Source of the DNA: Halomonas sp. YLGW01
GTDB taxonomy: Bacteria; Pseudomonadota; Gammaproteobacteria; Pseudomonadales; Halomonadaceae
DNA length: 64,000 nucleotides
Direction: 5' to 3'
Assembly (NCBI RefSeq): GCF_014840935.1
Contig: NZ_CP062005.1
Span: 2,790,001-2,854,000, forward strand
Both the position numbers and the translations under genes were made by a program. The notes beneath the pieces were generated by a model. That model saw only the letters and a list, made by a program, of their open reading frames with translations. It was not told where the DNA came from and ran no database searches. This document shows positions 33,019 to 36,310 of the stretch, piece after piece (within the stretch, counting starts at the first letter, position 1; every line of letters starts with the position of its first letter).

Positions 33019-34122
33019 CTAGAGCCAGCCGCCAAGTTCCTGCTTCACGATGGCCGTCAGCACATCGATGTGCGCCTCATCGGCATTGAGGCAGGGCACA
33101 TAGGTGAAGGTCTCGCCCCCGGCGGCGAGGAAGGCCTCGCGAATCTCCTGCTGGACCTCCTCGAGGGTCTCGACGCAGTCCGAGGCGAAGGCCGGGGAGA
33201 TCACCGCGATGTGCTTCTTCCCCGCCCGGGCGAGTTCGACCACCGTATCCACGGTCGCCGGCCCCACCCACTTCTCCGGCCCGAACTTGGACTGGAAGGC
33301 GGTGATGATCTCGTCGTCCTCCATCCCCAGGTGCTCCTTCACCAGGCGTGTGGTCTTGTGGCACTGGCAATGGTAGGGATCTCCGTCGAGCAGGTAGCGC
33401 TCCGGCACTCCGTGGTAGGACGCCACCAACACCTCGGGGCGGGTGCCATGGGCGGTGCGGGCATCATCGTAGGCCTCCCGAACCGAGCTGCCCAGCGCCG
33501 CGATATAGTCCGGGCGATCGAAGTAGGCCGGCACGGTACGCAGCGCCGGCTGCCACTTCAGCGTCATCAGGGTGCGGAACACCTCATCGTTGGCGCTGGC
33601 GGTGGTGGGCGAGCCGTATTGCGGGTAGAGCGGGAAGACCAGCAGCCGTTCGCAGCCCTGCGCCTGCAGGCGCCGGATCACGCTATCGGTCGAGGGGTTG
33701 CCGTAACGCATGCAGAAATCGACCAGCACCTCATCGCCGAAGGCCGCCTCGAGGCGCGCCGCGACCTTCTCGGTCTGCTCGCGGGTGATGGTCAGAAGCG
33801 GGCTCTCGTCGCGCTCGGTGTTCCAGATGCTTCGATAGGCCTTGCCGGAGATGAAGGGTCGGCGGGTCAGGATGATGCCCTGCAGCAGCGGCTGCCACAG
33901 CCAGCGGGAGTAATCGACCACCCGCCGATCGGAGAGAAACTCGGACAAATAGCGGCGCATCGACCAGTAGTCGGTGGCATCCGGCGTCCCCAGGTTGGCC
34001 AGCACCACACCGACCTTCTTGCGCGGCACCGGCGGGTGATCGGCCCCGGCATGGACGAGGCGCCCCTCGCCGGGCTGATCGAGGGCGGCGGCAGACGAAC
34101 GGGGAGTGGCTGCGGACATCAT
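33019..34122 (-). CDS. hemH: Ferrochelatase
   Basis: Inserts Fe2+ into protoporphyrin IX, the last step of protoheme synthesis. The 367 residues include KVGVVLANLGTPDATD, RYGNPS, FPLYPQYGSPTTAS, the catalytic histidine in VASYHGVPERY, and SPAFASDCVETLEEV with the active-site glutamate. The first 30 residues form a non-conserved N-terminal extension. AAGGA lies five bases before ATG 34122. It is divergent from the iron-sulfur photolyase gene, with the palindrome 34191-34220 between them, so both could share control. Confidence 0.96.
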   Translation of the reverse strand: MMSAATPRSSAAALDQPGEGRLVHAGADHPPVPRKKVGVVLANLGTPDATDYWSMRRYLSEFLSDRRVVDYSRWLWQPLLQGIILTRRPFISGKAYRSIWNTERDESPLLTITREQTEKVAARLEAAFGDEVLVDFCMRYGNPSTDSVIRRLQAQGCERLLVFPLYPQYGSPTTASANDEVFRTLMTLKWQPALRTVPAYFDRPDYIAALGSSVREAYDDARTAHGTRPEVLVASYHGVPERYLLDGDPYHCQCHKTTRLVKEHLGMEDDEIITAFQSKFGPEKWVGPATVDTVVELARAGKKHIAVISPAFASDCVETLEEVQQEIREAFLAAGGETFTYVPCLNADEAHIDVLTAIVKQELGGWL

Positions 34123-34190
34123 GAAATCCTTGTGACGTGACCGACGGATGGCTCAATAGCTTACCAAAGGGATGCCATCGTGAAGAATGG

Positions 34191-34220
34191 AGTTATACTA
34201 CCATTCACATTTGTATAACT
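34191..34220. promoter_or_regulatory. Palindromic operator between hemH and the Fe-S photolyase gene
   Basis: AGTTATAC (34191-34198) and GTATAACT (34213-34220) are an exact 8-bp inverted repeat with a 14-bp spacer. Within it TATACT-N12-TGTATA agrees at 11 of 12 positions with the reported LitR-type box T(G/A)TACA-N12-TGTA(C/T)A (recalled, not searched). It ends 12 bp before the photolyase ATG and lies about 70 bp from hemH, so it must overlap the photolyase promoter; TATACT itself could be a -10. Confidence 0.7.
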
Positions 34221-34232
34221 TCAGGTTAAATC

Positions 34233-35885
34233 ATGTCGAAGCCATTGATCCTGGTGCTGGGTGATCAGCTCAGCCCATCACTGGCGAGCCTCCAGGCGCT
34301 ACCGGACGAGGCCGTGGTGGCTCTGTGCGAGGTCGCCGAAGAAGGCCACTACGTGCCCCATCACCCGCAGAAGATCGCGATGATGTTCGCCGCCATGCGC
34401 CACTTCGCCGCCGAGCTCGAGGCGACGGGGCTCAAGGTGCATTACAGCCGCCTCGACGATGCCGACAACCGCCAGCGGCTGCTCGAAGAAGCCGAACGCT
34501 TGGCGGCACACTACGACTGCGACGAGATCCGTGTGGCACGGCCAGGGGAGTGGCGACTCTACGAGGCCATCCGGGCGCGCACCGACATCGGTACCCAGGA
34601 GGCGAAGCATGCCCCCCTGCCCTGGCGAGTCATCGAGGATGATCGCTTCTTCACCACCCCCGAGGACTTTGCGGCCTGGGCACGAGGCCGCAAGACCTAT
34701 CGCCTCGAGCACTTCTACCGGCATCTTCGCGAGCGCACCGGGCTCCTGATGGACGACGGCCAGCCGGCCGGCGGCAAGTGGAACTTCGATCATGACAACC
34801 GTGAGCCGCTGCCCGACCACCCCGCCTTTCCCACGCCGCCGATCCATGAGCAGGATGCCACTACCACGGCGGTGCTCGATCTGGTGGCGACACGGTTCGC
34901 TGAGCATTTCGGCTCGCTCGAGGGCTTCCACTGGCCGGTGACCCGCGCCCAGGCCCTCGACGAGCTCGAGCACTTCCTTACCGAACGCCTGTCGGACTTC
35001 GGCCGCTACCAGGATGCCCTGAGCGACGCCGCCCCCTTTCTCTATCATTCGCGCCTGGCCGCGGCGCTGAACATCGGCCTGCTCTCGCCCATCGAGGTCT
35101 GCGAGGCCGCCGAACGGGAGTATCGCGAGGGGCGTGCGCCGCTCAACTCGGTGGAGGGCTTCATTCGCCAGATCCTCGGCTGGCGGGAGTATGTGCGCGG
35201 GCTCTATTGGACCCGCATGCCCGACTACAAGCGCGGCAATGGCCTCGGCGCTCGCCGCGACCTGCCGGCCTTCTACTGGAGCGGCGATACCGAGATGCGC
35301 TGCCTGAAGCGCGCCATCGAGATGACTCGCGATCACGCCTATGCCCACCACATCCAGCGCCTGATGGTCACCGGCAACTTCGCCCTGCTGTGCGGGGTCA
35401 AGCCCGAGGCCCTGTGCGACTGGTACCTGGCGGTGTATGCCGATGCCTGCGAATGGGTCGAGCTGCCCAACACCCTGGGCATGGTGCTGCACGCCGATGG
35501 CGGCCTGATGGGCTCCAAGCCCTACTGTGCCTCGGGCAAGTACATCGACCGCATGGGCGATCACTGCAGGCACTGCCGCTTCGATCCCAAGCAGGTCACC
35601 GGTACTCATGCCTGCCCCTTCAACAGCCTCTACTGGCACTTCCTCGAGGAGCACCGGGAGGCGCTCGATACCAACCCGCGCATGAAACTGATCTACGGCT
35701 CGCTCGATCGCATGAAGGACGAGAAGCGCGAGGCCATGCGCCAGCAGGCCGAGGCCTTCCTGGCTCGCCTGGACACCGCCCCCGCCTATGGCCGAGGCAC
35801 ACACCTGGCCGGCTATCGCGAGACCGGCGACACCCCTGATGCCACCGCCCCGTCGACCCGCCCCGGTGCCCAGGAGCCTTCCTGA
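34233..35885 (+). CDS. Iron-sulfur bacterial cryptochrome/(6-4) photolyase (FeS-BCP, PhrB-like)
   Basis: Prokaryotic photolyase with FAD, a lumazine antenna and a [4Fe-4S] cluster; Agrobacterium PhrB repairs (6-4) photoproducts. The 550 residues start with LILVLGDQLSPSLASL and the cluster cysteines are C357, C445, C448 and C461, a constant +7 offset from the PhrB ligands 350/438/441/454. Other hallmarks: EGFIRQILGWREYVRGLYW, YAHHIQRLMVTGNFALL and HADGGLMGSKPYCASGKYIDRM. The last 30 residues are low-complexity. AGG seven bases before ATG 34233 serves as RBS. TGATG coupling to the DUF393 gene. Confidence 0.95.
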   Translation: MSKPLILVLGDQLSPSLASLQALPDEAVVALCEVAEEGHYVPHHPQKIAMMFAAMRHFAAELEATGLKVHYSRLDDADNRQRLLEEAERLAAHYDCDEIRVARPGEWRLYEAIRARTDIGTQEAKHAPLPWRVIEDDRFFTTPEDFAAWARGRKTYRLEHFYRHLRERTGLLMDDGQPAGGKWNFDHDNREPLPDHPAFPTPPIHEQDATTTAVLDLVATRFAEHFGSLEGFHWPVTRAQALDELEHFLTERLSDFGRYQDALSDAAPFLYHSRLAAALNIGLLSPIEVCEAAEREYREGRAPLNSVEGFIRQILGWREYVRGLYWTRMPDYKRGNGLGARRDLPAFYWSGDTEMRCLKRAIEMTRDHAYAHHIQRLMVTGNFALLCGVKPEALCDWYLAVYADACEWVELPNTLGMVLHADGGLMGSKPYCASGKYIDRMGDHCRHCRFDPKQVTGTHACPFNSLYWHFLEEHREALDTNPRMKLIYGSLDRMKDEKREAMRQQAEAFLARLDTAPAYGRGTHLAGYRETGDTPDATAPSTRPGAQEPS

Positions 35886-36310
35886 TGTCCCGCCCCGTCA
35901 CTTCCCCCTACCACGCCACCGCCCCGGTAACGCTCTTCCACGACGGCCACTGCCCCTTCTGCCAGCGCGAGGTCGCCTGGCTGGCGCGCCACCCGCGTCG
36001 CGAGCGAGTCGTGCTGATCGACATCCAGGCAGATGACTTCGATGCCGCCGCCTGGGGACGCTCGTTCGAGGCCATGATGGGACGCCTGCATGTGCGCGAT
36101 GCGAGGGGCGCCTGGTTCGTGGGCATGGACGCCAGCCGGGCCCTCTATGCGGTGCTGGGCTATCGGCGGCTCGTAGGGCTGACGATGCTGCCGGTCCTTG
36201 CCTGGTGCTTCGACCGCGGCTATGTCGTCTTCGCCCGCCATCGGGTACGGCTGGGAGCATGGTGGGAAGCAAGGCGTCGCCGGCGCGAGAAAGCCAGGCG
36301 TGAGGCATGA
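35885..36310 (+). CDS. DCC-family thiol-disulfide oxidoreductase (DUF393)
   Basis: 141 residues with a thioredoxin-like N-terminus: VTLFHDGHCPFCQREVAWL, where the CPFC motif is the predicted redox pair, and a conserved GMDASRALYAVLGYRRL region before a hydrophobic segment and a very basic C-terminus. DUF393 proteins often neighbour photolyases. The ATG overlaps the photolyase stop by one base, so the two are co-translated. Its partner and substrate are unknown. Confidence 0.85.
   Translation: MSRPVTSPYHATAPVTLFHDGHCPFCQREVAWLARHPRRERVVLIDIQADDFDAAAWGRSFEAMMGRLHVRDARGAWFVGMDASRALYAVLGYRRLVGLTMLPVLAWCFDRGYVVFARHRVRLGAWWEARRRRREKARREA

Follow-up and report, generated by a model that had tools for sequence, protein, structure and literature searches.

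The palindromic sequence lying between the divergently oriented hemH, which encodes ferrochelatase, and a gene for an FeS-BCP family photolyase in Halomonas sp. YLGW01 is found to track hemH, and not the photolyase, through the family Halomonadaceae, and a LitR-type operator is the most likely identity for it. The best explanation of the observations as a whole, to which a probability of roughly 0.75 is attached, is that it is the operator of a class II LitR encoded elsewhere on the chromosome, through which hemH and the photolyase-DCC1 pair would be repressed in the dark, this repression being relieved by a LOV protein in blue light. Three components of this explanation are present in the DNA itself: the box in the promoter of litR, the fixed spacing of the hemH sites with their A/G and C/T alternatives, and a gene for a short LOV protein in the same genome.

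In the window (the whole 64,000-nucleotide stretch of the chromosome that was analysed), the arms AGTTATAC and GTATAACT are exact over 8 bp each, and the full site reads AGTTATACTACCATTCACATTTGTATAACT (Table 1); this confirms both the arms and the position between the two genes reported in the first-pass annotation. The site is 13-42 bases ahead of the photolyase start and 69-98 bases ahead of that of hemH, and is unique in the window at up to three mismatches. The perfection of the palindrome was rejected as significant by itself, as six perfect 8-bp inverted repeats with a 14-base gap are found in the window, which has a G+C content of 66%; this site is the one of the six with A+T-rich arms.

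Table 1. Positions in the window of the predicted operator, the elements overlapping it and the genes on either side.
Feature	Coordinates	Strand	Basis
hemH, ferrochelatase, 367 aa, predicted main operator target	33019..34122	-	Pfam PF00762, E 1e-106; NCBIfam TIGR00109
Promoter-like ATGCCA-N16-TATACT toward photolyase	34172..34199	+	Consensus scan, 9/12; putative function
Palindromic operator (predicted LitR-binding site), AGTTATAC-N14-GTATAACT	34191..34220	.	Exact in window
TATAAC, possible -10 toward hemH, inside operator arm	34192..34197	-	Read from sequence; putative function
LitR-box core TATACT-N12-TGTATA	34194..34217	.	11/12 to T(G/A)TACA-N12-TGTA(C/T)A
FeS-BCP family (6-4) photolyase/CryB-like protein, 550 aa, predicted second target	34233..35885	+	PF04244
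DCC1-like thiol-disulfide oxidoreductase	35885..36310	+	PF04134; overlaps photolyase stop

A recount upholds the 11/12 match of the core to the class II LitR box, the consensus of which was correctly quoted in that annotation and agrees with the T(G/A)TACA-N12-TGTA(C/T)A given in a study of Pseudomonas mendocina (PMC9758184). The sole mismatch in the core is the inner base of one half-site, and this departure is itself conserved, with A replacing the T of the box in approximately 92% of 65 unique hemH sites. As the P. mendocina folM box, TGTACA-N12-GGTATA, has a mismatch at the corresponding position (PMC9758184), binding of LitR to the off-consensus hemH site is plausible. The outer AGT/ACT flanks of the hemH sites, the conservation of which was partly imposed by the search pattern, are absent from most of the boxes in litR promoters.

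The genome-wide scan proposed in the first-pass annotation, applied to the single 3.45 Mb contig, detected seven LitR boxes with no more than one mismatch, against approximately 1.1 expected under a first-order model of the window's composition and none with a reversed control pattern. Two of the seven are exact, where the same model predicts 0.016, and these precede litR and folE-folX. Since the site beside hemH is one among five 1-mismatch boxes in the genome, its sequence alone is merely suggestive, and the case for its being a LitR site rests instead on conservation. For the four remaining 1-mismatch boxes (C1:1142901, 1519179, 3205511 and 3302349), the frames inspected nearby contain nothing clearly related to light, and these boxes may be due to chance; the one at C1:3205511 (L043), which falls in repetitive sequence of the TATATGTAC type close to a gene resembling a transporter, probably is.

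Elements resembling promoters overlap the site on both strands. A single promoter-like pair directed toward the photolyase was found, compared with a mean of 0.1 in shuffled sequences, and its second hexamer, TATACT, falls in the left arm of the palindrome. The TATAAC directed toward hemH is conserved in the profile of the 65 unique sites; a large part of these sites were retrieved with a pattern that fixes those bases. Neither the consensus scan nor the site profile revealed a convincing -35 element for hemH; a TTGACC-like stretch 7-12 bases outside the core in the hemH orientation was rejected for this role, being too far from TATAAC.

The palindrome, at up to one mismatch, is found in 106 of 275 Halomonadaceae genomes, at one place in each of those tabulated, while the reversed pattern matches approximately 18 of the 275. 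When one genome per species was scanned across 84,980 species, the exact asymmetric form was retrieved in 47 named records, whose titles without exception give Halomonas, Vreelandella, Billgrantia, Onishia, Bisbaumannia, Aidingimonas or Halovibrio; Onishia and Halovibrio were established as Halomonadaceae by look-up. The surroundings of the palindrome were examined in 62 of the 106 positive genomes, comprising a set of 30 loci, a further 20, eight others (G000-G006 and G016) and G024, G194, G225 and G149. In 60 of these 62 the palindrome adjoins hemH, the other two (G024 and G194) being litR promoters. By contrast, a photolyase, either complete or cut by the end of the retrieved sequence, is present at 35 of the 60 site-bearing hemH loci, and is absent or reduced to a fragment at 25. 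The set of 30 has 16 loci with the photolyase, 13 without and one with a fragment of 48 residues; the set of 20 divides into 11 and nine; all eight of the third set retain the gene; and the final two have remnants or nothing. None of these 25 genomes belongs to the group of 161 in which a photolyase was matched at E 1e-100. Hence hemH is the constant partner of the site and the photolyase the variable one, and ownership of the site chiefly by the photolyase was rejected. The proposal of an operator common to both genes therefore stands in so far as the box is between them, while understating the role of hemH, which keeps the site where the photolyase is missing. Several relatives show loss or truncation of the photolyase, with DCC1 or short remnants of the photolyase gene still present next to an intact hemH and operator (L053, L059, L111, L112, L266 and L271).

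From the perspective of the photolyase, orthologues with at least 57% identity were compared in 15 genomes: in 11 the site precedes the gene with no more than one mismatch, in G032 and G009 it has three mismatches, and in G018 and G020 no site is upstream. None of the 14 loci with a photolyase of 55% identity or less, five in the family and nine outside it, has the site. The first-pass annotation had made its reading depend on the palindrome being present upstream of orthologues, and it precedes many of them, being absent in some (G018 and G020). The closest solved relatives of the photolyase are CryB (3zxs) and PhrB (4dja, a (6-4) photolyase); residues 4-515 align to 3zxs, and four cysteines match cysteines of CryB and are presumably the ligands of the FeS cluster. 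The DCC1-like gene is likely to be on the photolyase transcript.

A single ferrochelatase match was found in each of the 46 other Halomonadaceae genomes tested, and hemH is probably essential and needed in the dark. The hemH adjoining the same operator is approximately 45% identical to that of the window in some genera (g6, g7 and g9) and at least 70% identical in others; this jump in identity, noted over loci L014, L018, L050-L052, L054-L056 and L262, looks as if the gene had been replaced in place.

The regulator proposed to act at the site is a LitR-like MerR protein of 303 aa, encoded outside the window at C1:265302-266210. The initial reading had been contingent on the genome containing a LitR/CarH homologue, and this is one; it is among four MerR-type matches in the genome, the other three being in shorter open frames of 147-190 aa. 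Its nearest solved relative is CarH, and the MerR-type DNA-binding domain is shared with the B12 photoreceptors of Thermus and Myxococcus. Unlike CarH, the only Pfam families found in it are MerR and general HTH, and no B12-binding domain was identified up to E 10, a limit at which HMMER filters drop most matches above approximately 0.1. Its score against the NCBIfam CarH equivalog, 96.7 bits, is below the cut-off of 400. The cobalamin motif is E/DxHxxG; the region of LitR reading PEAHGML aligns to GERHEIG of CarH, an alignment uncertain by one residue in which the last G is not kept; the motif may not be intact. In view of the Pfam result, the B12-based photoreceptor originally suggested is unsupported and was set aside, and the lack of a detected B12-binding domain together with the presence of a short LOV gene leads to its replacement by a proposed class II LitR coupled to a LOV protein. 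According to PMC9758184, the class II LitR/LOV system does not require B12, and class II LitR of Pseudomonas is, as here, a CarH-related MerR protein with no detectable B12-binding domain.

litR heads a same-strand set of genes encoding the photolyase PhrB, a SnoaL-like protein, a short-chain dehydrogenase, an FAD amine-oxidase-like protein, DUF1365, a CMAS-type methyltransferase and DUF2878. The exact box in its promoter is at C1:266303-266326. Among the best 30 of 262 genomes with a litR match, an exact box is present within 350 bp of litR in 25 and a 1-mismatch box in two; of the remaining three, which have none, G014 and G059 belong to genus g9, a genus in which the hemH palindrome is present. 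In the litR promoters of two genus g19 genomes (G024 and G194) the sequence is AGTTATAC-N14-GTACAACT, one base different from the arms of the hemH palindrome, and this near identity provides a direct link between the two kinds of site. A gene for a CbiX/SirB-like chelatase immediately precedes litR in the same orientation, with the box in between (L003, 1900-2268; G000, C1 approximately 266364-266732).

The gene for the short LOV protein is at C1:2354660-2355073. The best solved match of the protein is 6gg9, annotated as a sensory box protein (E 1.3e-56), and its full length aligns with the solved short LOV proteins 6gg9 and 3sw1, which are taken to be P. putida PpSB1-LOV and variants of it. 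A short LOV is present in 33 of 37 litR-positive genomes sampled, there being no match at E 1e-35 in G010, G011, G028 and G034. It may be argued that LitR does bind the site while the light input comes from B12 or another photoreceptor, or that LitR is an activator, since G011 and G028, two of these four, have both litR and the palindrome beside hemH, and the LOV gene of Halomonas sp. YLGW01 is unlinked to litR. Set against the absence of a B12-binding domain from LitR by Pfam, the co-occurrence of the two genes in most litR-positive genomes and the description of P. mendocina PmlR2 as a repressor inhibited by LOV (PMC9758184), this alternative appears unlikely. The LOV motif NCRFLQ is also found in three large proteins (L045-L047; G000 C1:149847, 2467511 and 3399711) in which regions of GGDEF/EAL type were recognised by eye; these proteins suggest a further putative blue-light input into cyclic-di-GMP.

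The relationship between the site and litR was studied in 46 genomes, comprising all 13 with no litR match at E 1e-30 and 33 litR-positive genomes hand-picked from the 158 without a strict match to the palindrome; the promoters of two of the 33 (G018 and G020, both lacking the site) were known beforehand, the other 31 not. The strict palindrome was lacking from 44 of the 46 promoters, the litR-negative G260 and G275 being known to carry it. The core TRTAC-N14-GTAYA precedes hemH in 26 of the 46: 23 of 33 litR-positive genomes versus three of 13 litR-negative ones (Fisher p 0.007, a value that ignores shared ancestry), the intact core being absent from the other ten litR-positive genomes. Among the 23, many have the sequence TGTACAAAT or finish with GTACA, and it is by these alternatives that the LitR box is defined. 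The three litR-negative genomes with the site are split into 230-440 contigs, and all keep the short LOV gene; as such fragmented assemblies retain LOV, it is plausible that litR was missed in them; the gene is present in one (G181) of the ten genomes negative for both litR and the site. A looser search for litR in the 13 litR-negative genomes gave weak general MerR matches and nothing better. In one of those also negative for the site, the 77% complete G157, there is an apparent decayed site before hemH.

The association bears on the possibility that the site belongs to another regulator, whether responsive to oxidative stress, iron or heme or a second MerR protein, with a LitR-like DNA preference. 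In E. coli, hemH is under OxyR, and the conserved base and flanks of the hemH element are mostly missing from litR-promoter boxes. Nevertheless, the presence of the site is associated with that of litR, near-identical arms stand in the litR promoters of the two genus g19 genomes, and the other three MerR matches are the shorter ones, such that ownership by another regulator is judged improbable.

The spacing of the arms is likewise informative: an N14 gap is found at 58 of 78 hemH loci, of which 32 had been chosen by the N14 palindrome, while each other spacing from N8 to N20 occurs once or not at all. Least probable of all is that the site consists of back-to-back promoters whose TATAAC -10 hexamers are mirrored by accident, with no regulator involved, as despite a -10-like hexamer within each arm, the overlap of the photolyase-ward pair with one of them and the frequency of perfect repeats of this type in the window, the arms keep their fixed spacing and vary between A and G and between C and T as the LitR box does, the site is less frequent in the absence of litR, and symmetry and spacing persist without a photolyase in the locus, the core being present at 26 of 43 photolyase-less hemH loci.

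Under the preferred explanation of a class II LitR operator, the steps beyond the DNA site, all of which we infer, would be as follows. In the dark, LitR would occupy the operator and cover the promoter elements of both strands, so that hemH and the FeS photolyase-DCC1 pair would be transcribed less; binding of the LOV protein to LitR in blue light would relieve the repression. The greater amount of ferrochelatase in the light would use up, and so drain, the photosensitiser protoporphyrin IX, while the photolyases would repair DNA. As hemH is probably essential, strong repression of it in the dark is implausible, and its probable requirement in the dark gives rise to the speculative idea that the one-base departure from the ideal box keeps the repression of hemH partial.

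The folE-folX box is kept at up to one mismatch in all six genomes of genus g1, the genus of the window, in which the folE locus was examined, and in seven of the 30 folE loci examined overall (those six and G017; box-bearing loci L223-L228 and L230), not being seen at the other 23. Owing to this restricted distribution, the folE box was not used as family-wide support, and the folate/pterin genes may have come under light control only recently.

Several of these components have counterparts in the class II LitR/short-LOV systems of Pseudomonas (PMC9758184). The box consensus is the same for PplR1-3 and for PmlR2 with PmSB-LOV, a short LOV and a box-bearing folE are found as here, with folE belonging to the LitR light regulon, and downstream of litR the order of phrB, short-chain dehydrogenase, FAD oxidoreductase and CMAS-type methyltransferase genes is as in the P. 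mendocina pmlR1 region. In Pseudomonas, hemH is situated close to the phr-MerR cluster. The arrangement differs in that litR and LOV are unlinked in Halomonas sp. YLGW01, and in that, when the hemH and folE boxes are compared, the widely conserved box outside litR is that of hemH; neither hemH nor ferrochelatase occurs in the text of the P. mendocina paper. Control of a bacterial ferrochelatase by LitR or short LOV was not found in text searches of an open-access library; work on P. putida (Sumi et al. 2020), outside that scope, may contain a prior report.

A different bacterial link between ferrochelatase and photo-oxidative stress is known from Shewanella, where hemH2 is under RpoE2/ChrR and a double hemH mutant is inviable in the light (PMC6664582). 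That system, unlike the one proposed here, depends on a sigma factor reacting to oxidative stress and a second ferrochelatase copy, and not on a light-sensing repressor. hemH mutants of E. coli accumulate protoporphyrin IX and move away from blue light (PMC12627116), and endogenous porphyrins are the prevailing explanation for the killing of bacteria by blue light (PMC8508746).

Blue-light control of ferrochelatase, proposed here, is shared with the fungal White Collar system, while the transcription factors and DNA sites are unrelated, and the likeness is convergent at most. White Collar 1 senses light via a LOV domain. Fungal ferrochelatase is light-induced, and in Trichoderma a bidirectional light-inducible promoter is common to ferrochelatase and a DNA-repair gene (PMC8966179; see also the citation of Idnurm and Heitman 2010).

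On balance, it seems probable that in the Halomonadaceae ferrochelatase is a core and widely conserved target of a LOV-LitR blue-light switch, a separately evolved counterpart of the fungal White Collar link, to which the photolyase comes and goes, and in which the fixed off-consensus base would allow tuning by light without shutting the gene off in the dark. That related genomes keep the site suggests that these bacteria respond to light by consuming a heme precursor that is toxic in the light. If true, bacteria would pre-empt light damage by pulling protoporphyrin IX into heme, beyond repair alone, and there would be a bacterial parallel to the control of ferrochelatase by blue light in fungi.
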